Shown in pieces: positions 353 through 62,537 of a DNA stretch of 64,000 nt. The DNA lies in NCBI GenBank assembly GCA_002162815.1, contig MAAT01000042.1, positions 62,001 to 126,000 on the forward strand. Reading direction: 5' to 3'. A program made the translations under genes and the position numbers. The number at the start of each line of letters is the position of its first letter. The stretch's first letter is position 1. The stretch is from Gammaproteobacteria bacterium 53_120_T64 (GTDB lineage Bacteria; Pseudomonadota; Gammaproteobacteria; Pseudomonadales; Porticoccaceae). The notes below the pieces were generated by a model. That model saw only the letters and a program-made list of their open reading frames with translations, was not told the DNA's origin and did no database searches.

Positions 353-1726
353 TTAGGTTCCGTACATATCGGGTAGGACGATGCCGTCGTCGCGCAACTT
401 CGCCAACTTATAGCGCAGGGTGCGCGGGCTAATGCCCAGCCGCTCGGCGGTTTCCTTGCGCCGGCCACGCTCGGCCTTGAGCGCATCGACGATAATCTGC
501 TGCTCGTGGCCGCGCAGGTCGTTTTCCAGTGCCGAGCCGTCGAGGGCCTCGGCTGGCGCGGCGACAGTACTAGGCACCGACAACAGTGACACCGGCGCAC
601 CCGGCTCCTCGAGATGAATGTCCGCCTCGCCGAGAATATCCCCGGCGAGTAAAATCATCGCGCGCTGCACGACATTGTGTAATTCACGAATATTGCCCGG
701 CCAGGCGTAGGCCTCGAGCATTTGCGCGGCCCTAGGGGACAAGTTCACCACTTGGCCCGCGCCACTCTGCTCGTCGACAAAGCGGCGCACCAGGGGCAGG
801 ATGTCGCCGCGACGCTCACGCAAGGGGGCCAGGGCGATGGGGAAAACATTGAGCCGGTAGAACAGATCTTCACGAAAGCGCCCGGCCGTCACCTCGCCGC
901 GCAAGTCCCGATTGGTGGTCGCCAGCACGCGGACATCGAGGGCAATAGTGCCCTTGCCGCCGAGGCGCTCGACCTCTTTCTCCTGCAGGACCCGCAGTAA
1001 TTTCGCCTGCAGGGCGACGTCCATTTCCGATATTTCATCGAGTAACAGCGTGCCGCCCTCGGCCTGTTCAAATTTACCGGCGCGGGCTTGGTGAGCGCCG
1101 GTAAAGGCGCCCTTTTCATAACCGAAGAGAATCGACTCGAGCATGGTCTCCGGCAGGGCCGCACAATTGATCGCCACAAAGGGGCCATCGCAGCGGCTGG
1201 AGTTATCGTGAATAAAGCGCGCCAGTACTTCCTTGCCGGTGCCCGACTCACCGCTGAGCATCACCGTGGCATCGGAGGCGGCGACCCGGCGCGCCAGTTC
1301 CACCACCTGCTGGGCTCTAGGATCCTCGGCGATCATCTCTGCGCCATCGCCCGCCGCTTTATGGGCAAAGCGGCTGACCATGGCAATCAACACCTCCGCC
1401 TCGAAGGGCTTGATCAAATAATCGGCGGCGCCATCGCGCATCGCCGCGACGGCCTTTTCAACACAGCCAAACGCCGTCATCAGCACCACCGGCAAGCGCG
1501 GCCAGGTGCGCTTAATATTCTGCAACAGGGCGTGGCCATCCATCGCCGCCATTTGTACGTCGCTGACGACCAGGTCGACCGACTGGCGGTGCAACAGTGC
1601 CAGCGCCTCAACGCCATCGCAGGCAAATTCGACGCCGTAGCCGGCAAACGCCAGGGTATCGCAGAGCGCCTCGCGCAGTAGGTCATCGTCCTCAACGACC
1701 AATATCTTTAAAGCCACATTACTCAT
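353..1726 (-). CDS. fleR: Sigma-54-dependent flagellar response regulator FleR/FlrC
   Basis: Cytoplasmic response regulator that, when phosphorylated by FleS, activates sigma-54 promoters of middle/late basal-body and hook genes. A receiver domain covers residues 1-120 with acidic pocket VEDDD, phosphoacceptor D56 (VVSDVQM) and K106. An AAA+ domain follows with Walker A GESGTGKE (159-166) and the sigma-54 contact loop GAFTGA (206-211). A Fis-type helix-turn-helix ([20 protein letters not shown]) lies near the C terminus. At 457 residues it has normal length. Its start overlaps the stop of fleS by 4 bases, so the two are translationally coupled. Confidence 0.95.
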
Positions 1727-3096
1727 CGTCGACCTCCAGCCATACTTTGCACAGTTTCTATTGTCTGCCCCAGCACACCCGCTTCAACAATGGGGCTATC
1801 AATGCTCGACACGACTAAACCGGCGCCATCGAAGGGGGCTATTTGAGTTTGTTTATAAGACTGTTGAGCCGGCACAACCCGCTCGTCACGGCTGCCGAGT
1901 AAAGGCAACTCAAGACAGAACACGGTGGCGCCATCGGCCCGCGTATCGAGACGCATTTTGCCGCCGTGGCTGCGCACGGTCATCGCCACCACCGCTAAAC
2001 CGAGACCCGTACCCTTCACCCGCGTGGTGAAAAACGGGTCGAATATCCGCTCGCGAATATCCGCTGCGACACCCGGGCCATTGTCGGCGACCAAAATCTG
2101 CAGTGACCCCGCCACCACGCTAATGTCAATATCGAGACACAGGGCCTTGTCCGCAACATCAATGGCATTGTCGACCAAGTTCAATACAGCACCGAGCAAC
2201 TCATCCCGGTCACCGTCGATGGTCTTAGTGCCGCTGCCCAGTGCCACACGGGCATTCAGCGCGCCACCGCATTGCTTCACGAGGGGATCGACCAAGGCCA
2301 GCAACTCCTCGGCAAAGCTCTGCAGTTCAATGCGCTCAAGTACCACCGGGGCGCCGCGCACGAAGGTCAGCATGCTATTCACCAGGCCCTCCATGTGGCG
2401 CAGACTATCGACCACCTTGGACGACACCCGCTCGCGCTCCTCGGCTGTCGCCGTGGGCCGAGCCAGATGTGAAACGTAGAGTAGGGCCGAGCTCAGGGGC
2501 GTGCGAATTTGGTGGGCCAAACGAGCCGCCATTTCACCCAGCGCCGACAAACGCTTATCGCGACTGACGGTTTCCTGCAGGTCGTGCAGGCGCGTCATAT
2601 CGGTAAGTAGAATCAGCTCTTCATTGGCGTCGGGCAGGGGCTGGCGGCTGAGGGATAAACGCCGACCATTACTGAGAAAAAACTCACTCTCGCTGACGGC
2701 ATTGCCGCCATCGCGGCAGGCCCCTGAAATGAGCTGGGGCCAAGCTTGGCCGAGTAGGGATTGTTGGCTATCGAGGTCGCGAACAGGCTGCGAATGGCCG
2801 CCGCTGTGGGCAAAAAAGTTTTCTGCGGCGGCGTTGGCCTGGGTAATCACGCCCTCGCTATCGAGCACTAGCACACCGCCGGGTAGCTCGCTCATCAGTA
2901 GGGCTAGGCGATTCGCCAGGCGCTCCTTCTCGGCCAACTCCTGCAGGCGCTGTATGCGAACCTCGGCCAGCTCTTCGGTGAGGGTACTGACCCTCACCTG
3001 CAATACGCGATAGCTGATATCCAGTTCTTCGGAAACCCGGTTAAAGGTTTCGAACACTTTTTCCAGTTGCTCTGTGGTCTGCGCTGCTTCTGTCAT
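1723..3096 (-). CDS. fleS: Flagellar sensor histidine kinase FleS/FlrB
   Basis: Soluble sensor kinase, partner of FleR. No membrane segment is visible. Residues 1-65 look like coiled coil, a PAS-like segment follows (GGVLVLDSEGVITQANAAAE), then the HisKA box with H195 in LAHQIRTP and a HATPase_c domain with N box (VDNAIDVA, about 308-315), G1 (ADNGPG) and G2 (KGTGLGL, 361-367). The length of 457 residues is slightly over that of P. aeruginosa FleS (about 400). The AHQIRTPL motif is characteristic of the FleS/FlrB branch. A good sigma-54 promoter lies 55-71 bases upstream of the start. Confidence 0.94.
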   Translation of the reverse strand: MTEAAQTTEQLEKVFETFNRVSEELDISYRVLQVRVSTLTEELAEVRIQRLQELAEKERLANRLALLMSELPGGVLVLDSEGVITQANAAAENFFAHSGGHSQPVRDLDSQQSLLGQAWPQLISGACRDGGNAVSESEFFLSNGRRLSLSRQPLPDANEELILLTDMTRLHDLQETVSRDKRLSALGEMAARLAHQIRTPLSSALLYVSHLARPTATAEERERVSSKVVDSLRHMEGLVNSMLTFVRGAPVVLERIELQSFAEELLALVDPLVKQCGGALNARVALGSGTKTIDGDRDELLGAVLNLVDNAIDVADKALCLDIDISVVAGSLQILVADNGPGVAADIRERIFDPFFTTRVKGTGLGLAVVAMTVRSHGGKMRLDTRADGATVFCLELPLLGSRDERVVPAQQSYKQTQIAPFDGAGLVVSSIDSPIVEAGVLGQTIETVQSMAGGRR

Positions 3097-3150
3097 AGCC
3101 GTCCTGCCCTGCGAATTTACGGTGCAAATAAAGATGCCGTAAAGTCACTA

Positions 3151-3167
3151 AGCAACAACTATGCCTA
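3151..3167 (-). promoter_or_regulatory. Sigma-54 promoter of fleSR
   Basis: On the minus strand this reads TAGGCATAGTTGTTGCT: GG and GC are separated by exactly 10 bases, with GGCA and TTGCT matching the consensus YTGGCACGNNNNTTGCW. A start about 12 bases downstream would leave a leader of roughly 43 bases before fleS. The FleQ-dependent sigma-54 control of fleSR known in Pseudomonas fits this placement. Confidence 0.75.
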
Positions 3168-3224
3168 TAATAAAACTACTTATTTTTTAAAGGGTTAGGC
3201 GACAAAGAAAACGAAACGTCAAAA

Positions 3225-4352
3225 TTACGACAGGGACTCAGCGCGACGAATGTCAAACTTACGGATCTTTTCAACCAGGGTGGTACGCTGTAAGCACAAC
3301 AGTTTTGCCGCCCGCGCCACCACCCAATCACTGTCGTCGAGGGCCTGGCGGATCAAGTCCTCCTCGACCTGGCGCAGGTAGTCTTTGAGGTCCAAACCCT
3401 CACCGCCCAGCAGTGCGCCGGGCGACGTCAGCGGCATACTGCGCTCTTCGACGCCGATATCGGCCAACATCGCCTCCTCCACCGCCTGACTCTGCTCTCC
3501 AGACCACTCTAGATTGCCGCAGTATTTATCGGGTAAATCCTTGGCTCGCACCTGCTGGCCCGGATGCAGAATACCCAAGCGCTCGACCAAATTGCCCAGC
3601 TCACGGACATTGCCCGGCCATGCGTAGCTCGCCAGTGCTGCCAGCGCACAGCTCTGCAGCTCGGCAATCCCCTGCCCACCGCGCTGCAGACGTTGATTGG
3701 TATGGTCGACCAATAGAGGAATGTCGGCGCTGCGCTCACGCAGCGGCGGCACGTCGATGGGGAAGACATTTAAGCGGTAAAACAGGTCGAGGCGAAAGGC
3801 CCCCGCCTCAACCCGCTGCTCAAGGTCGTGGTGGGTGGCGGCGACGACCCGCACATTCGAGTGAAGCGTCTTGCTACCACCGACCCGCTCAAAGCATTTT
3901 TCTTGCAGTACCCGCAGTAACTTGACCTGCATCTCCAGCGACATATCGCCAATTTCATCGAGAAACAGCGTGCCGCCCTCGGCCAACTCAAAGCGCCCCT
4001 GACGCGCCGTAATGGCCCCGGTAAAGGCGCCTTTTTCATGGCCAAATAACTCGGACTCTAAGAGATCGGGGGGAATGGCACCGCAATTGATCGGTACAAA
4101 GGGACGCTGACTGCGCAGCGACTGGCGATGCAAGGCCTGGGCAACCACCTCTTTACCGGTGCCCGACTCACCGAGAATCAACACCGTCGCCTCACTCTCG
4201 GCAACCTGCTCCAGCAGACGCCTAACGCGCTGCATACCGGCGCTATCGCCGACCAAACGGGGCTGGCCACTGGCAGGCTTGACCTCGGCCACGGCATTGA
4301 GATTAGTCTTCACATCAAGCGCCACTCTCGATCCTTTCATTGTGTCATGCAA
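3225..4352 (-). CDS. fleQ: FleQ/FlrA-like sigma-54 activator lacking the N-terminal FleQ domain
   Basis: Bacterial enhancer-binding protein, the likely flagellar master regulator. An AAA+ domain (about residues 30-270) carries Walker A GESGTGKE (61-68) and GAFTGA (108-113). The C terminus ([20 protein letters not shown] ... [11 protein letters not shown]) is clearly of FleQ type with a Fis helix-turn-helix. At 375 residues it is about 115 short of P. aeruginosa FleQ: the receiver-like FleQ domain is absent. The start is TTG at 4352 (ATG at 4340 is an alternative), and an in-frame TGA at 4358-4356 rules out a longer product. The known c-di-GMP contacts are also missing: the residues after Walker A are QA instead of R185-N186, and the LFRS motif before LVG is replaced by GQPR. 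FleQ-type activity is inferred from the C-terminal match and position. Confidence 0.85.
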
Positions 4353-9005: not shown

Positions 9006-10880
9006 CTATTGTAGCAGTGACAACACACTCTGTGGCAGGGAGTTGGCCTGCGACAGAATGGAGACACCGGCCTGTTGAAGAATTTGCGACCGGGTCAAGG
9101 CTGCGGTTTCTGCGGCAAAGTCGGCGTCGAGAATCCGGCTACGTGCAGCGCTGAGGTTCTCAGAGGTAATCGCCAGGTTGGAAATGGTCGATTCAAAGCG
9201 ATTTTGCACCGCACCCAGGTCGGCTCGAATAGTCGATATCTGGCTCAACGAACCGTCAAGCACCGAGATGGCCGCATTGGCGCCCTCGACTGTGGAAATA
9301 TCTACAGTGCTGAGCTTGGTCAAGGCCGCAGAACTCGAGCCCAAACCACCAAAAGCCAGGTCGCTACCGCCGAGAGTAAAGCTCTCTGCCGCACTCAAGG
9401 TCAAGGTGCCACGATTCGTCACACCAGTACCATCGGCCGAGCTCTGACCGAGCACTGTTGTCGCGGCCGCGGTACCCGGATCCACACCGCCCGTTGAATA
9501 AGAAGCGGCGTTGACCGTGTAAACAATCGCACCCTCGGTACCATCACCAAATTTGTTTTGGGTGAGCGTCGTCGTATTGGTGGACGCTACTGCTGACAAT
9601 GTGGTATTACCCAAGCCGTTTTGTGTATTCACCGCAAGCGCTACAGCCGCAGCAGCGTCATTTTCCGTCTCTGAGTTACCAAGGAATACTGCGACGTTGG
9701 TACCGCTTGCAGTACCACCGTCGGTGACATATTCATAAGTCAGACCGTCGAGAGCAAAGTTATCACCTGCTACAATTTCTATCGCATTAGCACTCGTCAG
9801 ACCTGCAGTCTGGTACACGGTAGCCGCATTGAAGGTTATAACGCGGGTGTTATGCGTATCGGTAGGTTCAGTAGTGCTCGTCGATACATCGAGACCCACG
9901 GCGTTCAAAATCTTGGTGGCACCCGCTACCGATTCAGCCCCCGAGGTCAGCGCAATATTGCGGCCATCGGCCGCCGTTAAGGTCAAGGCACCAGTGGTGG
10001 CATCGGCCAGAGCGCTCACCCCCGTCTGATTGGTAATGGCGTTAATCGCCGTGGCCGCACTGCGGCCCTGAGTCACGGAGCTACCATCTTTGGCGATGGC
10101 TCCCACGGCAATGCCATTAATGAGCAAATCACCGTTGGCGAGGCCAACACCGGCGACCGGCGCGCCACCGGCCACTGTATTCGCCGCTGTGGCGGTGACG
10201 CCCGTGGTGCTGGTCTTAGAATTAATCGACACCGCTTTTGCGGCGGCGCTATCGGCCGTGAAGCCCGCCGAGGCTGTGGCTACCGAAACACCGACCTCTG
10301 TACCGTTGATGGTAAAGCTTGCACCATCAAAGGCGCTGCCGGTAACCGCCGAACCCGTGGTCTGATAGGCACCGAGAATATCGGTGGTGGCACCGGTAAT
10401 ACCAAAGGAAATGGTCTGATTGGCGTTGGCGCCGACCTGAAACTGAGCCGAAGAAAAGGTGCCATCGAGAATGTTCTGGCCGTTAAACTGAGTGGTTTGA
10501 CCCACCCGTCCAACCTCTGCCAGTAGCTGCTGTACTTCCGAGTTCAGGGCTTTTCGGTCAGAAGCGGAGTTGGTGGAGTTGGCCGACTGAATGGCCAGTT
10601 GACGAATACGTTGCAGGGAGTTACTGGACGCACCCAGGGCACCCTCAGCGGTCTGGGCCAATGAGATACCGTCGTTGGCGTTGCGCTGGGCCTGGTCGAG
10701 ACCCCGAATCTGGGTAGTAAAGCGCTCGGAAATGGCCAAACCCGCCGCATCGTCCTTGGCGCTGTTGATGCGCAAGCCCGAAGATAAGCGCTGCAGGGAG
10801 GTCGACAATTGGCTCTGCGAGGTGTTGAGGTTGCGCTGCGCTGTCAACGAGGCGATGTTACTGTTAATAATCTGTGGCAT
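9006..10880 (-). CDS. fliC: Flagellin FliC
   Basis: Filament subunit, exported and polymerised under the FliD cap. Conserved D0/D1 segments are intact: N-terminal residues 1-170 ([49 protein letters not shown]) and the C-terminal 90 residues ([20 protein letters not shown] ... VLSLLQ). The central 360 residues, about 175-530, are a variable Ala/Thr/Gly/Ser-rich outer domain. At 624 residues this flagellin is larger than P. aeruginosa FliC (about 390-490). Start ATG has GGGAG 7-8 bases upstream. A sigma-28 promoter lies 143-169 bases upstream. The many Ser/Thr residues of the outer domain are plausible targets for the modification genes next door. Confidence 0.97.
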
Positions 10881-11234
10881 TTCTATGCTCCCGGTAAGCC
10901 TAGCGCTTACATTTAGCTAGTCGTTAGTGACTATTATTTGCCGTCTGTCTATTGATCTCGACATTGATAAAACGGCTAGTTCGGCGGCTATTTTTTGTAA
11001 ATAGGCAGCGCCTCCGAGTATGTTATCGGCCATAACCTTGAAAGCTTGAGGCGAAAAGGGAAAAGTTTTTCAAAAGCAGACAAAATGTGACCCCGTTCAA
11101 ACTTCCAGGCCGATTGCCTATCGGCAAGCCTATTCATTAATAGAAAAACCGGCCAGCCAAGAACCCACCCAAACCTAAGCAGCGAGAAGATATACTACGA
11201 CCCCAAACAGCTCTTCAACCAACAGGCTTATCTC
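10881..11234. other. fliC / glycosyltransferase divergent intergenic region
   Basis: These 354 bases separate two divergent genes and hold the sigma-28 promoter for fliC (11023-11049). A hairpin GCCGAT-TGCCT-ATCGGC lies at 11109-11125. A possible -10 box TATACT for the plus-strand gene lies near 11191, without a recognisable -35. No gene is apparent. Confidence 0.5.
11023..11049 (-). promoter_or_regulatory. Sigma-28 (FliA) promoter of fliC
   Basis: On the minus strand the -10 is a perfect GCCGATAA (11030-11023), and 15 bases upstream lies TCAA in place of TAAA (11049-11046). The spacing equals that of the flgM promoter in this window. It predicts a leader of about 130 bases. fliC is a class IV FliA-dependent gene in the FleQ-type hierarchy. 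Confidence 0.75.
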
Positions 11235-12974
11235 GTGGCGCGCAAAATCAAAAAAAAGAAGAAGAAAAAACCACCGCAGCAGGCCCCGCAAAGGCCTGCA
11301 AATATTGCTGGTGTAGCGCAGGCCATTGCACTGCAGCAAAAAGGGCATCTCGCGGCAGCCGAGGCGGCCTATCAAGCAATACTGCAGCGCGAACCTAACA
11401 ATGCCGCTGCCAATCATTTTCTTGGCATCCTCAAACAAGGCCAGGGTGAGCACCAAACGGCGCTGAGCCTGGTGGTAAAGTCGATTCAACTCAGCCCCAA
11501 TAACGCGGTTTTTTATTGTAATTACGCCAACTTGCTCCAAGCAGCCCAGCGCTTTGATGAGGCGGCAAGTCACTACCAGCGCGCCATTAAGCTTGCCCCC
11601 GACAAACCACAAACACACTATATGCTGGGCAATACCTTCAAAGCTCTTGAACAAACGGATAAGGCGCTAAAGGCCTACCGGCAAGCCCTTGCCCTTGAGC
11701 CCCAACACCTTGAGGCGCTTTGTAATATGGGCACCATTTATAAGGACAGGGATCAACTTACTGACGCCCTCAGTGCCTACGACAAGGGCTTGGCCATCAA
11801 CCCAGCGCATACGGCGCTGCTCAGTAATATCAGCCTGGTCTACCTGGCACAGAATGATGCCCCTCGCGCCCTGATAAGCTGCCAGAAAGCCCGCACTATC
11901 GACCCGACATCCGCAACTGTCACCTTTAACCTTGGCCTGATATTACGGGATTTAGTACGTATTGATGAGGCTATCGCTTGCTATAAACAGGCTATTCGTA
12001 TTCGCCCAGATTATATCGATGCCCATGGCGGGCTCTCCTCCGCACTGTTCATCAAGGGCAACCTAGAAGCCGGCTGGCGTGAATACGAGTGGGGGCTGGG
12101 CAAAAAGGATTATCGCCCCTCCAGCCGCCACCCCTACCCCCTGTGGGAGGGGGAATCCCTCGCCGATAAAACCCTGTTGGTGTGTGCTGAGCAAGGTATT
12201 GGCGACGAGGTAATGTTTGCCTCCTGCCTACCGGATTTACTCGCACAGGGGCCAAAAAAGGTGGTAGTAGAGTGTGACGTTCGCCTACAAGCCGTCTTGC
12301 GACGCTCTTTTAGCAAGATCAGCGTTATTCCCAGAAATAGCAATACGACTCACACGGCAGAAAAGCCAGCGCAGGCTATCGACTGCCAAATTGCCATTGG
12401 CAGCCTGCCAAAATTTTACCGCCCCAACCTCAAGGCCTTCCCGCAACAGCGAGGATATCTATTACCTGAACCCGCACTGCTGGCAAAATGGCAACAACGC
12501 TATGCCAAACTGGGTAGGGGTTTAAAGATCGGCATTTCTTGGCGCGGCGGTGTCGACAAGCTCGCCAAAACCACCCGATCTGTAGCACTGACACAGTGGT
12601 TACCGCTTTTTCAAGCCAAGGCACATTTTGTCAACCTTCAATACGGAGACTGCCACGAAGACATCGCCGCACTGGGTGAAAAGGCCGTTATTCATGACTG
12701 GGAGGATGCGGATCCACTGAAAGATGTTGACGATTTTATCGCACAAATTGCCGCTCTCGACCTGGTTATTTCCATTGATAATTCCACTGTCCACTTTGCC
12801 GGTGCCGTGGGCACATCCACCTGGGCATTACTACCCTTCGCAAGCAGCTGGCGCTGGTTTGGCGAAGAGGTCAACTCCCCCTGGTACCCCTCGCTTCGCT
12901 TGTTTCGCCAGCAACAGCGGGGTGACTGGTCACAAGTATTAAAAGATATAGGAACGGCACTGGCAAATTATTAA
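11235..12974 (+). CDS. TPR-glycosyltransferase, probable flagellin glycosyltransferase (FlmG-like)
   Basis: A 579-residue cytoplasmic protein starting at GTG, with a lysine-rich N terminus (KIKKKKKKKPP). Residues about 30-290 form successive tetratricopeptide repeats (for example AIALQQKGHLAAAEAAYQAI and ALEPQHLEALCNMGTIYKDR). The C-terminal half resembles a GT-B glycosyltransferase of the GT9/GT41-like kind (LLVCAEQGIGDEVMFASCLP, LKIGISWRGG, LDLVISIDNSTVHFAGAVG, WRWFGEEVNSPWYPSLRLFR). This TPR plus transferase layout is that of Caulobacter FlmG, which recognises flagellin through the TPR part. The position between fliC and flgL is where flagellin glycosylation islands sit in Pseudomonas. Which sugar is transferred cannot be told; no nonulosonate biosynthesis gene is in this window. 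Confidence 0.8.
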   Translation: MARKIKKKKKKKPPQQAPQRPANIAGVAQAIALQQKGHLAAAEAAYQAILQREPNNAAANHFLGILKQGQGEHQTALSLVVKSIQLSPNNAVFYCNYANLLQAAQRFDEAASHYQRAIKLAPDKPQTHYMLGNTFKALEQTDKALKAYRQALALEPQHLEALCNMGTIYKDRDQLTDALSAYDKGLAINPAHTALLSNISLVYLAQNDAPRALISCQKARTIDPTSATVTFNLGLILRDLVRIDEAIACYKQAIRIRPDYIDAHGGLSSALFIKGNLEAGWREYEWGLGKKDYRPSSRHPYPLWEGESLADKTLLVCAEQGIGDEVMFASCLPDLLAQGPKKVVVECDVRLQAVLRRSFSKISVIPRNSNTTHTAEKPAQAIDCQIAIGSLPKFYRPNLKAFPQQRGYLLPEPALLAKWQQRYAKLGRGLKIGISWRGGVDKLAKTTRSVALTQWLPLFQAKAHFVNLQYGDCHEDIAALGEKAVIHDWEDADPLKDVDDFIAQIAALDLVISIDNSTVHFAGAVGTSTWALLPFASSWRWFGEEVNSPWYPSLRLFRQQQRGDWSQVLKDIGTALANY

Positions 12975-13106
12975 CCACCTAAGAACCGCACCTCGCCCCG
13001 CACATTTAATTAACACGCCCCGTCAAAAGACGTTAAACTATTTCAAGCCCGCTTGAGCTTATAGCGGCTCATTGTGAAAACCCAGATATTGATGGCAGGA
13101 TAAAAA

Positions 13107-13859
13107 GTGAATATCGAAGATTTAAAAAACTTTGCCAAGGCAAACACCCCGGCAGTGAACATCATTACTCACGATGATTACTTTCGCCATGATGTTTTGT
13201 CGTCTATCGAAAGCACCGATGCTATCGGTATTGAGCTTGGCGTAGCGGGCGGGCACTATTCAAAAAGGATGACTGATAGCTGCAAATTCAAAAAGTTTTA
13301 TGGTGTAGACCTCTACGAAGACCACCACAATGTTATTGAATATAAAAATGCACTGAAACTAATAGGGTTAGATAAGAACTACGTACTTCTTCGGATGTCT
13401 TTTGATGAGGCTTGCGATCTCTTTGACGATAATTTCTTTGATTTTATCTATTTCGATGGCTACGCACATACCGGTGAAGAAGGCGGAAAAACCTTTTCCG
13501 ACTGGTATAAAAAACTAAAAATTGGCGGTGTCTTTGCGGGTGACGATTACCACAATGATTGGCCCTTGGTAATATGGGGCGTGAATGACATGGTCTCACA
13601 ATTAAATTGCGATTTACACGTAACCGGAAAAACTGAAACAACGAACTTAAATCGTTATCCATCTTGGTTTTTCAAAAAAACAACTGACGATACTTTTTGC
13701 ACATCTTCGGAGCTACTTAAACTAGGTGGTGAAATTAGAAGACAAACAAGAAATGTATCAAAACACATTAATCTTTCACTTGATGATATCGCCAAACTAC
13801 TAAAACAAGTAAAAGAAGAGCACCCATTAGCTGCTAACGAGCTCAAGAAACTTCTTTAG
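13107..13859 (+). CDS. Class I SAM-dependent methyltransferase, possible flagellin or glycan modifier
   Basis: A 250-residue protein with a GTG start preceded by AGGA 7 bases away. It has a Methyltransf_24-like Rossmann core: IGIELGVAGGHYSKRM as the glycine-rich SAM loop (about residues 37-52), an acidic residue ending the second strand (FYGVDLYED), and FFDFIYFDGYAHTGEEGGKTF with a following GGVFAGDD. Substrate unknown. Position in the fliC-flgL gap suggests methylation of the flagellin glycan or of lysines. Base composition is clearly more AT-rich than its neighbours, suggesting separate acquisition. Confidence 0.75.
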   Translation: MNIEDLKNFAKANTPAVNIITHDDYFRHDVLSSIESTDAIGIELGVAGGHYSKRMTDSCKFKKFYGVDLYEDHHNVIEYKNALKLIGLDKNYVLLRMSFDEACDLFDDNFFDFIYFDGYAHTGEEGGKTFSDWYKKLKIGGVFAGDDYHNDWPLVIWGVNDMVSQLNCDLHVTGKTETTNLNRYPSWFFKKTTDDTFCTSSELLKLGGEIRRQTRNVSKHINLSLDDIAKLLKQVKEEHPLAANELKKLL

Positions 13860-13923
13860 CAAGGCCCACAAGAGTGCCCATTTTATGGGTGAAGCCTCTG
13901 TAAACTCAGGAAATAACAGGCAC

Positions 13924-14010
13924 CAAGATGGCGCTGGTTTGGCGAAGAAGTCAACTCGCTCTGACACCCATCGACACGCTTGTTCCGCCAATAACTACCT
14001 GGACGATCAG
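13924..14010 (+). pseudogene. Relic of a second TPR-glycosyltransferase gene (3' end)
   Basis: Bases from 13929 align with the end of the intact glycosyltransferase gene from 12849: 55 of the first 67 bases are identical by eye, including the first 20. In the homologous frame the relic reads WRWFGEEVNSL, stop, HPSTRLFRQ, stop, matching WRWFGEEVNSPWYPSLRLFRQ of the intact gene with two stop codons. Nothing upstream of 13924 aligns. An overlapping 60-codon frame (13885-14067) is in another phase and is not a gene. Confidence 0.8.
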
Positions 14011-14063: not shown

Positions 14064-15269
14064 CTAGCGAATAAAATCAAACAGCGACAAACCCTGTACC
14101 TTAATAAAAACCTGCTGGGCCGCCTCTAAGGCAAAGGACTGAAAGTTGAGCTGACTGATGGCCTCGGCGAAATCGAGATCCTCGGTGTCCGAGAGCGCGC
14201 CCTGCATGCGCAGGCGAAAATTCTCGTTATTCTCAATCTGACTGTCGAGGTTATTGAGGCGCGAGCCAATATTGGAGTGCACACGTAAAAAGTTGCCCAG
14301 CGCACGATCAATATTCTCCAAGCCCTCCGCCATGTCATTGTGCAGCCGGGCATTGGCATCGGGGCTGGTTGATTGCGCCTGTAGTGCGGCGGCGATGGTA
14401 TCGAGGGTGGTAAAGACATCCTGGTTGACCGAGGGCTTGACCGTAAAACTGTCACCATTTTGCGGTGAGCCATCCACCGCCAGAGACACGCCGTTAAAGC
14501 TAATACCCTCGCGTGGCGCATAGGTGCCGGCGGCCACCACGCCACTGACCGCACCCACCACCTGATAGGTCACCGGATCGGTGGGCAGAGCCTGGGTAAA
14601 AGTCAGGGTGTAATCGTCCTTGACGAAGGTACCGCTCTGCGAGGCCGAACTAATCACCCCCGAACCGGTATTGGCCACGGTATTGTCCACGGTGAAGGTG
14701 CCATTGCCGGTTTTAATCAGCTGAAAGACATCGACCCCGGAGTCACTGACCGGAATCAGCGATGACGGCCCGACCTGAATACGGCGCTGGCCCTGGTCAC
14801 CGTTGTAAACCACACTGCCCCCGGAGCGGGTAAAGGGCTGGGTGGCGATTTGAAAGCCGGCGAACAGAAAGTCACCACTGGCATTGCGGGTATTGGCTAT
14901 CGCCTGCAGCTCGTCAATGCGCGCGCTGACCTCGTTGCCAAGACTTTGCCGGGTGCTGGTGGTCTGGCTGTCGTTATTGGCCTGTAGCATCAGCTCGCGT
15001 ACGCGCTGCAGGACGTTTTCAGCGGCCTTTAGCGAGCCCTCCTCCAGCGCCAGCTCGGTGCGGGCGAAGGCACCGTTTTCCAGGTATTGATCAGCGGTGG
15101 CAATTTGCTCCTTAATATCAATCACCCGCACCGCACCGGAGGGGTCGTCGGCCGGGGTGAGAATACTTTTACCACTGGCGATTTCCAGTTGGGTGCGCGC
15201 TAGCCCCTCCTGCTGGGCGAGCACCGCGCCAATGCCCTGGCGAAAAATCTGTGAGGTTGAAAGACTCAT
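14064..15269 (-). CDS. flgL: Flagellar hook-filament junction protein FlgL (HAP3)
   Basis: Junction protein between FlgK and the first flagellins. The N-terminal helix (MSLSTSQIFRQGIGAVLAQQ ... RTQLEIASGKSILTPADDPSGAVR) and C-terminal helix (EAISQLNFQSFALEAAQQVFIKVQGLSLFDFI) are the conserved flagellin-like ends of FlgL. Length 401 is within the family range. It lies last in the flgF...L series, 24 bases after flgK. Confidence 0.95.
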   Translation of the reverse strand: MSLSTSQIFRQGIGAVLAQQEGLARTQLEIASGKSILTPADDPSGAVRVIDIKEQIATADQYLENGAFARTELALEEGSLKAAENVLQRVRELMLQANNDSQTTSTRQSLGNEVSARIDELQAIANTRNASGDFLFAGFQIATQPFTRSGGSVVYNGDQGQRRIQVGPSSLIPVSDSGVDVFQLIKTGNGTFTVDNTVANTGSGVISSASQSGTFVKDDYTLTFTQALPTDPVTYQVVGAVSGVVAAGTYAPREGISFNGVSLAVDGSPQNGDSFTVKPSVNQDVFTTLDTIAAALQAQSTSPDANARLHNDMAEGLENIDRALGNFLRVHSNIGSRLNNLDSQIENNENFRLRMQGALSDTEDLDFAEAISQLNFQSFALEAAQQVFIKVQGLSLFDFIR

Positions 15270-24622: not shown

Positions 24623-24716
24623 CACAGCGCCTAAAAAACACCTCGCACCGGCAAGGCTCTGCCGGATAACGGCAAGGCCGGTGCCGCGCTGCAGGTGTTT
24701 CAAAAAAGTCGCTGTG
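24623..24716. repeat. Long imperfect inverted repeat between the flgB and flgA promoters
   Basis: Nested matching arms: CACAGCG (24623-24629) with CGCTGTG (24710-24716), AAACACCT (24636-24643) with AGGTGTTT (24693-24700), and GCACCGGC (24645-24652) with GCCGGTGC (24677-24684). The 24-base centre can form an alternative hairpin CCGGCA/TGCCGG (24648-24665). The heptamer CGCTGTG occurs a further time inside the flgB promoter (24577-24583). There is no T tract that would make this a simple terminator. It could be an activator/operator array or a decayed mobile repeat. Confidence 0.75.
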
Positions 24717-24733
24717 CAGGCCACAAACTACAA

Positions 24734-24750
24734 GCGGCCCAAATATTGCT
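24734..24750 (+). promoter_or_regulatory. Candidate sigma-54 promoter of flgA
   Basis: GCGGCCCAAATATTGCT: GGC and TTGCT match the -24 and -12 elements with 10 bases between GG and GC; the outer bases of the -24 box deviate. A start near 24761 precedes the chosen flgA ATG at 24774 by 13 bases. Confidence 0.5.
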
Positions 24751-24773
24751 TAGCTATTAACAAGCTCTGCAAA

Positions 24774-25568
24774 ATGATGATAAATGGACCACGAGACGCC
24801 AAAAAATTGACTACTCTCAACAAAAGAACCCACGGCCAGTGCGCGACAGCCCGGTGGCTGACAATCGCCATAGCGGCCCTTGCCCTCTGCGCCACACTAG
24901 CGCTCGGCACCGCCCCCGCCGTGGCTGAAGAGGCGCAATTCCACGCCATTAGTGCCATCAAGGCTAGCGCCGCCACATTTCTCAATGACCACAAAGATAT
25001 TCAGGGACAGGCCAATACCACCGTCAAAATTGGCCATATTGATACGCGTTTAACACTACCCCGCTGCAGCGCACCGCTCGAGGCCTTCCTACCCCCCGGC
25101 GGCAATATCAGCGGCAAAACCACTGTTGGCGTGCGCTGTCAGGGCTCGCGCCCCTGGACGCTCTATGTCCCCGCCAGCGTCACCTCGGTCACTCGCGTAC
25201 TTATCACCAATGCACCGCTGCGGCGTGGACACGTGGTCCGCGCCGAGGATATTGGCCAGCAAACCCGCGACACCCGCTCGCTGAGTCGCGCCTATTTGAG
25301 CAATCCACAGCAGGTCATCGGCAAGGTGTTAAAAAGAAACCTGGCTAACAAAGCCCTGTTTACCAGCGCCGTGCTCACCGAGCCCCATATCATCCAGAAA
25401 GGTCAGCAAGTCACCCTGCAGGCCGGCAGCCATGGCCTGAACGTTAGCGTCACCGCTATGGCTTTAAATGACGGCGCTGTGGGAGAAAAAATTCGCGTCA
25501 AAAACCTCTCCTCCAGCAAAATTGTCGAGGGCACCATTCTCGCCTCTGGGGTGGTTCAGGCGGACTGA
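24774..25568 (+). CDS. flgA: Flagellar P-ring assembly chaperone FlgA
   Basis: Periplasmic chaperone for FlgI. From the ATG at 24774 the product has 264 residues; the frame is open to an ATG at 24681, but that lies inside the long inverted repeat and upstream of the candidate promoter. A signal peptide (ATARWLTIAIAALALCATLALGTAPAVAEE) is followed by the FlgA SAF-type domains: VKIGHIDTRLTLPRCSAPLEAFLP, RPWTLYVPASVTSVTRVLIT, GHVVRAEDIGQQTRDTRSL, and the C-terminal QVTLQAGSHGLNVSVTAMAL ... GEKIRVKNLSSSKIVEGTI. The signal sequence is preceded by an unusually long charged N region, so the start remains uncertain. Confidence 0.92.
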   Translation: MMINGPRDAKKLTTLNKRTHGQCATARWLTIAIAALALCATLALGTAPAVAEEAQFHAISAIKASAATFLNDHKDIQGQANTTVKIGHIDTRLTLPRCSAPLEAFLPPGGNISGKTTVGVRCQGSRPWTLYVPASVTSVTRVLITNAPLRRGHVVRAEDIGQQTRDTRSLSRAYLSNPQQVIGKVLKRNLANKALFTSAVLTEPHIIQKGQQVTLQAGSHGLNVSVTAMALNDGAVGEKIRVKNLSSSKIVEGTILASGVVQAD

Positions 25569-25605: not shown

Positions 25606-25632
25606 TAAAGTTATTCACCAAGATGCCGATAA
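25606..25632 (+). promoter_or_regulatory. Sigma-28 (FliA) promoter of flgMN
   Basis: TAAAGTTA at 25606-25613 and a perfect GCCGATAA at 25625-25632, with 15 bases between TAAA and the -10: a textbook FliA promoter. It gives a leader of about 40 bases before flgM and explains feedback expression of the anti-sigma factor. Confidence 0.92.
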
Positions 25633-25679
25633 GCTAATTGCCAGTGTTTCGACACTGTAAAACGGGAAGGACAAGCACC

Positions 25680-25988
25680 ATGGATATCAGACCAACGCAG
25701 GGCTCTACCAACGGCCTCAACACCAACGGCGGAAAAAAAGCCGATGCTAGCCAAGGCCCCAGCCCCGAGAAAGCCGGCACGCCACAGGCGGGCGGTGAAT
25801 CGAGCACGGTTACCGTTACCGACTCGGCCTTGAAGATGTTAAAAATCGAGCAGACCCTCGCCGAAATGCCGAGCTTTGACGCCGAAAAGGTCGCGCGCAT
25901 TAAGCAGGCCCTGAGCGATGGCTCCTACACCATCAATACCGAGCAAATCGCCGATAAGCTCATAAAGTTTGAGCAGGATCTGGCCTAG
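25680..25988 (+). CDS. flgM: Anti-sigma-28 factor FlgM
   Basis: FlgM binds FliA and blocks late gene expression until it is exported through the finished hook. The start at ATG 25680 follows GGGAAGGA by 6-13 bases; the frame is open further upstream, to 25638, but that would overlap the promoter region. The 102-residue product has a disordered, Gly/Ser/Pro-rich N-terminal half and a conserved C-terminal FliA-binding part (DSALKMLKIEQTLAEMPSFD ... VARIKQALSDGSYTINTEQIADKLIKFEQDL). Confidence 0.95.
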   Translation: MDIRPTQGSTNGLNTNGGKKADASQGPSPEKAGTPQAGGESSTVTVTDSALKMLKIEQTLAEMPSFDAEKVARIKQALSDGSYTINTEQIADKLIKFEQDLA

Positions 25989-61204: not shown

Positions 61205-62537
61205 CAACACACTCCGCCCAGTACCTAAAAAAGCCAGCTCAGGGCTAAGCCTCGGCGCATTAGCCCTGAGCCTGTGGCTCGGCACCACGAGCGTCTCGGC
61301 CCAGCTGATACCCCTCGATGGTATCGCCGCCATCGTCAACGAAGACGTGGTGATGAAAAGTGAACTGCGCGATCACACTGAGCAGTATTACCAACAAATA
61401 CAGCGCCAGGCCGCCACGCAACAGCAGCGCCAGCAAGTCCCTCCCAAAGAGGCTCTCGTCTCGCAGGTGCTCGACAAGCTAATCCTCGATCGCATTATGC
61501 TGACCATGGCGGAACGGGCAGGCATTAAAATCGGCGACAAGGAACTCAACGACGCGCTGACCAGCACCGCCAAACAGCAAAATATGAGCTTTGATCAGTT
61601 TGTCGCCATGGCTCACAACGATGGCTTGAGCCTGGCCCAGCTACGCACACAATTTCGCCAGGACATGATCATTGGCCGCGTACAACAGGGTATGGTCAAG
61701 CGGCGCATCGAAATTAGTGATCAGGAGGTCGAAAACTTTCTGAATTCCGAAGAGGGTCAATTAATGAGCTCTCCCGACCTCAATGTTGGCCACATTTTAC
61801 TGACACGGCCCTCCTCTGCCAGCCCCGCAGAGCTCGACGCCAGTCTTCGTAAAGCCACCGAGCTGCGCCAGCAGGCCGTCGACAGCAGCGATTTTCGCAA
61901 CATTGCCCTGCTCAATTCCCGAGGCCCCAATGCACTCAAGGGCGGAGATCTCGGCTGGCGCAAAGCCATGCAGCTACCGCCGCTGTTCAGCCAGGCACTG
62001 GCCGCACTAGCGCCCGGTGAAATATCCCCGCCGCTGCAAAGTGACGCCGGCATCCACCTCCTAAAGCTGTATGAGCGACGCGGTGGCGGCGAACAACTGA
62101 TTCAGCAAACCGAAATTCGCCACATTCTGCTCAAGCCCAATGAGATCCTCACCAAGCAAGCCGCACGTCTAGAAATTAGCGCTCTGCGCGAACGCATTAT
62201 CGCCGGGGAAGCCTTCGCCGATCTGGCACGAGAGTTTTCTGAAGACCCCGGCACCGCGCTGAAGGGTGGCGAGCTTGGCTGGTCGTCCTCCGGCCAATTC
62301 GTACCGATTTTCGAAAGCACCGCCGCCGAGCTGGAGGTCGATGAAATCAGCGAGCCAGTGTTCAGTCAATTTGGCTGGCACATTATTCAGGTCACCGGGC
62401 GGCGCAGCGAAGACTTCAGCGAGACACTGATGATCAACCAAGCCCGCAACGCCCTTGGCCAACGCAAGTACGCAGAGGAACTACCCATCTGGCTGCAGGA
62501 GATTCGTAGCGAAGCCTTCGTTGATATAAGGCCGTGA
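61185..62537 (+). CDS. surA: Periplasmic chaperone/peptidyl-prolyl isomerase SurA
   Basis: Chaperone for outer-membrane proteins including LptD. I use the ATG at 61185 (MAMKQDNN, 450 residues); an ATG at 61191 is equally plausible, and the open frame extends to 61149. Either start lies inside the last codons of lptD, so the two genes overlap. Signal peptide about 20-40 ([20 protein letters not shown]), N-terminal SurA domain ([20 protein letters not shown]), two parvulin domains (about 190-285 and 300-395; [23 protein letters not shown]). A normal length. Confidence 0.95.

Follow-up and report, generated by a model that had tools for sequence, protein, structure and literature searches.

The stretch analysed here (the window) comprises 64,000 nucleotides of Gammaproteobacteria bacterium 53_120_T64, positions 62,001 to 126,000 of contig MAAT01000042.1 (G000:C24:62001-126000), in a 2.95-Mb genome of 76 contigs that is 93.6% complete. 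It holds a small insert, hereafter the cassette, between the flagellar genes fliC and flgL. The product of fliC (9006-10880, minus strand) is a 624-aa flagellin matched by the Pfam profiles Flagellin_N and Flagellin_C (Flagellin_N, 7.9e-44) and is the probable acceptor of the modification proposed below. A sigma-28-like promoter of fliC, TCAA-N15-GCCGATAA (11023-11049, minus strand), was located by a script scan and agrees with the consensus at 11 of 12 positions. On the right-hand side the cassette is bordered by flgL (14064-15269, minus strand; TIGR02550, 281 bits against a cut-off of 127). The interval contains, all on the plus strand, GT, a 579-aa tetratricopeptide repeat (TPR) glycosyltransferase with a GTG start (11235-12974); MT, a 250-aa class I S-adenosylmethionine methyltransferase of the Methyltransf_24 family, also with a GTG start (13107-13859; PF13578, 1.2e-7); and, adjoining flgL, a 70-nt remnant (13926-13995) left from the 3' end of a second TPR-transferase gene. 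No other gene was found there, and 132 nt separate the end of GT from the start of MT. The first-pass annotation had placed flagellin-modification genes between fliC and flgL; the open reading frames (ORFs) lie where it put them, and Pfam and NCBIfam profiles confirm both flanks.

The same annotation described the remnant as a dead copy of the transferase. The remnant is real: it is 81% identical over 70 nt to the 3' end of GT (12846-12915), and its local alignment score of 44 exceeds the maximum of 23 obtained when the 204-nt gap was shuffled 500 times (first-order). It is, however, a scrap of the 3' end and far from a full copy, as no further part of the 1,740-nt GT gene was recognised in the region beyond these 70 nt. 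Its reading frame contains stops. Because the remnant is closer to the window's own GT (81%) than to the best copy in a sister species, G046 (66%), these identities make a lineage-specific duplicate more likely than a descendant of the sister's flgL-proximal transferase.

A Pfam scan of GT matched TPRs and assigned no family to the C-terminal half. The AlphaFold2 model, built on a 30-sequence alignment (pLDDT 91.6, pTM 0.87), contains sixteen helices forming eight TPRs (residues 24-288; 11304-12098, plus strand), followed by an alternating strand-helix domain of GT-B, GT9-like type (approximately residues 300-579; 12132-12971, plus strand). The TPR part, which also drew matches to the TPRs of O-GlcNAc transferase (OGT), is presumed to dock flagellin. 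In a Foldseek search with the model, SPINDLY (ranks 1-8) and OGT (from rank 10) were the best-ranked glycosyltransferase analogues; the superpositions were poor, and the domain plan alone was taken from them. VIA-align placed the GT9 enzyme 3tov on residues 306-579 (Z 19.2, rmsd 2.9, 255 aligned), the sole match in the list restricted to the catalytic half. The Glyco_transf_9 profile matched two of seven aligned C-terminal domains (best 8.8e-6) and did not match that of the window's GT. GT keeps the positions that are invariant in the 30-sequence alignment, including EQGxGD, and the D..S...H positions conserved in the family. The fold matches, the model and the conserved EQGxGD motif together suggest that GT looks like an intact TPR-GT-B protein glycosyltransferase, and the fusion of a TPR domain to a transferase domain claimed for it is borne out. 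Neither the 19 Pfam families listed for GT nor the 25 listed of its 39 NCBIfam families included a GT41 or OGT model. The MptE-like family PF01973 had no match in GT or in the genome (control matches in 4 of 14, all archaea), and a Maf identity for GT was rejected on this ground.

FlmG of Caulobacter crescentus (596 aa) combines TPRs with a GT-B part; its TPR half binds flagellin, and the protein needs pseudaminic acid, which is made by NeuB (PMC7591256). We compared GT with nine FlmG-like loci from another class of the same phylum, picked non-randomly as likely Caulobacter-type families; their class was inferred from FlbT/FlaF context and from membership in that other class. The nine homologue ORFs encode 557-743 aa, and every stretch holds a flagellin match (27.9-59.0 bits, the weakest being cut by a contig end). 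Pfam detected FlbT and/or FlaF in five of the nine (L265, L266, L268, L270 and L271) and NeuB beside the FlmG-like gene in one, L270; neither FlbT nor FlaF was noted in L263, L264 and L267, and FlbT in L269 was recognised by eye only. The C-terminal domain of GT is 33.1-36.5% identical to those of the nine genes, which are presumed to be FlmG from their context and are not the named Caulobacter FlmG. Over the whole protein, 465-552 columns aligned at 26-30% identity with seven of them, L264 and L267 being left out of this comparison. In a tree, the window's GT grouped with G046 GT1 and GT2 (SH-aLRT 81) and outside a seven-member FlmG-like clade (99), from which two further FlmG-like rows also branched apart; this was a quick tree with weak deep branches, from which 2 of 113 possible rows were dropped for want of a long stop-free match. 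Read by eye, the alignment shows two features of the GT domain that are missing from all nine FlmG-like proteins: a His (SIDNSTVH) and an RS motif. By sequence, GT is a relative of FlmG-type genes, FlmG-like but not FlmG: we do not file it as FlmG because it lies outside the main FlmG-like clade, differs at conserved positions and belongs to a genome without a NeuB match. The proposed FlmG plan thus holds for the TPR-transferase architecture and the homology to presumed FlmG, and is not supported as regards strict FlmG identity.

A search with the C-terminal half of GT covered 369 class genomes and 390 order genomes; 58 and 42 of these, respectively, had a match, the window's own genome included. 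Up to 20 kb was taken around 100 spots: all 48 in the order, derived from 53 listed places outside the window, and 52 in the class, mostly the higher-scoring ones. A flagellin match above 40 bits lay within about 10 kb at 23 of the 48 order spots and 11 of the 52 class spots, a count lowered by contig ends that cut some of the stretches and drawn in part from same-genus genomes, which are not independent (L163, L164 and L215 repeat the contigs of L064, L063 and L058, respectively). By hand count, the linked order spots represent 11 of the 22 genera with a match other than the window's. Simple arithmetic puts the chance of finding one locus in 20 kb taken at random from a 2-4-Mb genome at about 1% or less. 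The TPR-transferase stands alone between flgL and fliC in L173, L216 and L217, shares that interval with further genes in L165, L176, L177, L187 and L188, and adjoins flgL in L175 and L184. A first scan of the collection, covering 77 loci, found flagellin within at most 7 kb in six and flgL in one more. In the first tree, from which L053 (stop in the translated match) and L050 (duplicate of G046 GT1) were left out, six changes of the flagellar label are needed, and the flagellin-linked copies therefore do not form a single clade in that tree. Two individual arrangements were also observed. In L219, two TPR-transferase genes are flanked by a pair of flagellin genes that both encode 480 aa. In L059 (4332-11802), fliC and the gene of a 1510-aa TPR-transferase are divergent, as in the window, and an adjoining wecE-type transaminase gene hints that the L059 flagellin may carry a 4-amino-4,6-dideoxyhexose.

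The slot itself varies between close relatives. flgL is present in all seven genus genomes examined. In the sister species G046, whose FlgL, FliS and FlrA-like regulator are 94%, 91% and 91% identical to those of the window, the flgL-fliC gap holds five candidate cassette genes, compared with two in the window genome. They encode three TPR-transferases (656, 940 and 611 aa; 29-49% identical to the window's GT), a GT8-like protein (Pfam 0.003, below the cut-off) and a putative methyltransferase (Pfam 0.09, below the cut-off, motif seen by eye) without meaningful BLAST similarity to MT. In all five of the other congeners, fliC is the gene after flgL, and no cassette gene separates the two. Two closely related species carry different cassettes in the same flgL-fliC slot. 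As in a glycosylation island, a glycosyltransferase is inserted in the fliC-flgL interval, is absent in relatives and has neighbours of variable content. On the G046 stretch (L026), a TPR-transferase gene (1446-3416) and flgL (244-1449) are convergent with 3' ends that overlap by 4 nt, so cassette exchange extends to the flgL stop codon. A GT8-like protein starting with a VFIGxD-like motif recurs beside TPR-transferases in L026 (6418-7143), L027 (5627-6310), L187 (7021-7698), L171 and L185; four of these five loci are near flagellin, and the assignments are around the Pfam cut-off or, in L171 and L185, by eye.

MT belongs to the Pfam families PF13578 (Methyltransf_24; 33 bits, cut-off 26.3) and PF08241 (Methyltransf_11; 23.5 bits, cut-off 21.2) and had no NCBIfam match at 0.01. 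Its GC content is 38.8% (GC3 38.2), compared with 53.0% in GT and 55.7% in the window. At 1e-12, the remaining 368 genomes of the class yielded no relative; at 1e-5, phages and plasmids gave none, and weak matches (1e-5 or better) occurred in 14 other order genomes. The best relative in the viral collection is 48% identical over 155 aa and lies among ORFs that look glycosyltransferase-like by eye. MT is both AT-rich and rare, and we therefore infer from its composition and distribution that it was probably acquired horizontally, as a recent gain.

Methyltransferase and other modules accompany TPR-transferases at further flagellin loci, as seen in proteins chosen by hand for a Pfam scan, several of them for a visible methyltransferase motif; these are examples and not a census. 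In L058, L063, L064, L173, L216 and L217, the transferase carries a fused polysaccharide pyruvyltransferase domain, and in L058 and L064 it is also fused to methyltransferase-like domains. Separate methyltransferases above the cut-off occur in L171, L176, L185, L187 and L190, the last being a Methyltransf_24 protein like MT. The scanned parts of L165, L255, L239 and L247 gave no Pfam family. In L171, the methyltransferase is a PKMT_2nd and MethyTransf_Reg protein on the opposite side of fliC from the TPR-transferase, and it resembles protein lysine methyltransferases.

The variable part of FliC (residues 146-535, 390 aa) contains 99 Ser/Thr (25%) and 6 Lys. A Ser/Thr acceptor signature was rejected for FliC, as the flagellins of cassette-free congeners are similar (25-29%). 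Promoters were scanned with the sigma-28 consensus TAAA/GCCGATAA at a threshold of at least 10 of 12 positions. The window contains 34 matches at this threshold; its mononucleotide shuffles average 8.9. Neither GT nor MT has an upstream match of at least 10/12, compared with 11 for fliC, and sigma-28 control of either gene was rejected on this ground. Scans for sigma-70-like promoters and terminators gave results near chance. Elsewhere in the window, a perfect TAAA-N15-GCCGATAA site (25606-25632, plus strand) lies just 5' of an ORF (25638-25988) for a 116-aa FlgM-like protein, which adjoins a FlgA-like ORF (24681-25568); both ORFs were named by eye.

The search for sugar-nucleotide genes that could feed the cassette, suggested with the first-pass annotation, found them on other contigs: a complete rmlBDAC set, a wecE-type transaminase and a NeuD/PglB/VioB-type acetyltransferase, all above NCBIfam cut-offs. 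Given the rmlBDAC and wecE-type genes, dTDP-rhamnose and dTDP-4-amino sugars are probably available in the cell. The GT9-like fold of the model suggests ADP-heptose as a further candidate donor. NeuB (PF03102) had no match in the window's genome at its 93.6% completeness (control matches in 9 of 14); a pseudaminic acid donor was rejected on this ground and is unlikely because the genome lacks a NeuB match. Contig C64 of this genome carries a glycan cluster (L048 2774-11252) with a wecE-type transaminase, a NeuD/PglB/VioB-type acetyltransferase and ORFs that look methyltransferase-like by eye; this cluster might supply the flagellin sugar. The earlier idea of a minimal two-gene set that glycosylates flagellin and then methylates the sugar gains from the recurrent flagellin linkage and from the pairing or fusion of the TPR-transferase family with methyltransferase-like modules elsewhere; the set is not self-sufficient, because the sugar-nucleotide genes lie elsewhere in the genome.

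We consider it fairly probable that the cassette carries out cytoplasmic O-glycosylation of flagellin followed by methylation of the sugar, using a small exchangeable gene set. In the proposed mechanism, the TPR half of GT would dock newly made FliC in the cytoplasm, and the GT9-like GT-B half would move a sugar from a nucleotide-activated donor onto surface Ser/Thr residues before export. MT, which was probably imported, would then O-methylate that sugar, or its donor. The donor would come from general metabolism, the candidates being dTDP-rhamnose made by rmlBDAC, a dTDP-4-amino-4,6-dideoxyhexose made with the wecE-type transaminase, and ADP-heptose. Such a cassette would be small and rapidly exchanged.

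Several results weigh against this proposal. Five congeners do without the cassette, and their flagellins are alike in Ser/Thr content, so acceptor composition gives no support for the cassette's role. The TPR-transferase family is large and lies mostly away from flagellin: no flagellin was present in the stretch at 25 of the 48 spots in the order and at 41 of the 52 in the class (some of them contig-cut), 70 of the 77 loci of the first scan had neither flagellin nor flgL within at most 7 kb, and two Azospirillum plasmid copies have no annotated flagellar gene nearby. For GT, the whole-chain Foldseek TM-scores of 0.25-0.44 for SPINDLY and full-length OGT are weak superpositions. For MT, phmmer found no hit in the 100 fetched homologue spots, and the AlphaFold model (pLDDT 39) is uninformative on the fold; the fused methyltransferase-like domains of L058 and L064 and the putative methyltransferase of G046 are all below Pfam cut-offs. 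Within the cassette we found no sugar-nucleotide gene and no sign that GT and MT are co-transcribed.

The strongest alternative, which we nevertheless judge unlikely, is that GT glycosylates flagellin and MT methylates the flagellin polypeptide on Lys or another side chain, as Salmonella FliB does. The L171 protein across fliC from its TPR-transferase keeps this alternative alive by its likeness to protein lysine methyltransferases. FliB itself is a different, Fe-S enzyme. MT, in turn, falls in Methyltransf_24 with no NCBIfam match at 0.01, its nearest relative found lies among the viral-collection ORFs that appear glycosyltransferase-like by eye, and the variable part of FliC offers few lysines; these points argue against polypeptide methylation even though some flagellin methylation islands have a methyltransferase but lack a glycosyltransferase (PMC4875605). 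It is less probable still, and in our view doubtful, that GT acts mainly on another substrate, such as lipopolysaccharide, capsule or another protein, with its position beside fliC being incidental. Most family members examined are indeed not beside flagellin, and GT9, the nearest fold to the C-terminal half, is a heptosyltransferase family (PF01075 description). However, flagellin linkage exceeds chance in many genera (11 of the 22 other order genera with a match) and recurs in the presumed FlmG genes, the eight-TPR half favours a protein acceptor, and two species have inserts exactly between flgL and fliC with different cassettes. That the locus is decaying, GT and MT being leftovers of a larger island after loss of flagellin modification, is very improbable: the remnant and the larger gene set of the sister fit decay, but both ORFs are intact, GT holds the positions invariant across 30 sequences, and the presence of an AT-rich MT in the gap suggests gain and not loss alone.

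Phages and host immunity both target flagellin, and the sugars on it can alter what they recognise. Of the dedicated flagellin transferases described in the literature consulted here, the most closely studied, Maf and FlmG, are both nonulosonic-acid enzymes, and the cassette points to a common, under-described transferase class that probably uses other donors. A broader generalisation, to which we give about equal chances of proving right or wrong, is that FlmG is one branch of a wide, modular class of flagellin O-glycosyltransferases with TPR docking and a GT9-like catalytic half. Its gammaproteobacterial members near fliC would use non-nonulosonic donors and be exchanged as cassettes with fused or adjacent pyruvyltransferase, GT8-like and methyltransferase modules. 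Sister species whose FlgL proteins are 94% identical would then wear chemically different flagella. Flagellin glycosylation and FlmG are already known; in the open-licence literature we found no description of this cassette, of a gammaproteobacterial GT9-like class, of cassette turnover or of the fusions. With one transferase and one methyltransferase, the cassette is small enough to be rebuilt in E. coli, and it could be used to study the choice of flagellin by a TPR docking domain and the exchange of sugar decorations for new ones.

Among known systems, Maf likewise O-glycosylates flagellin in the cytoplasm, and Maf-1 has a C-terminal TPR part (PMC13317340); the MptE-like domain PF01973, however, is unmatched in the window's genome and in GT. 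The flagellin islands of Enterobacteriaceae resemble the cassette as variable inserts adjacent to fliC that contain glycosyltransferases and, commonly, methyltransferases (PMC4875605). Those islands occupy the interval from fliC to fliA or flgL, have glycosyltransferases classed as GT2, GT25 or GT41 and contain sugar-synthesis genes (PMC4875605), whereas the window's cassette encodes a TPR transferase of GT9-like type, and no gene for sugar synthesis was found in it. In P. syringae, the flagellin sugar lacks its methyl group when vioM is lost (PMC3927599); VioM is a methyltransferase required for that group, and MT is likened to it by its proposed role. The vioM gene sits in a viosamine island with donor-synthesis genes. 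SPINDLY and OGT (GT41) share with GT a domain logic in which a TPR superhelix is coupled to a catalytic part of GT-B type. They differ in that the catalytic half of GT matches the GT9 enzyme 3tov (Z 19.2, 255 residues), with no GT41/OGT profile among the families shown. GT also resembles FlmG. Both proteins have N-terminal TPRs and a C-terminal GT-B part, are of similar length (579 and 596 aa) and are linked to flagellin (PMC7591256). FlmG uses pseudaminic acid made by NeuB (PMC7591256), whereas the window's genome has no NeuB match, and the window's GT groups with the copies of its sister G046.

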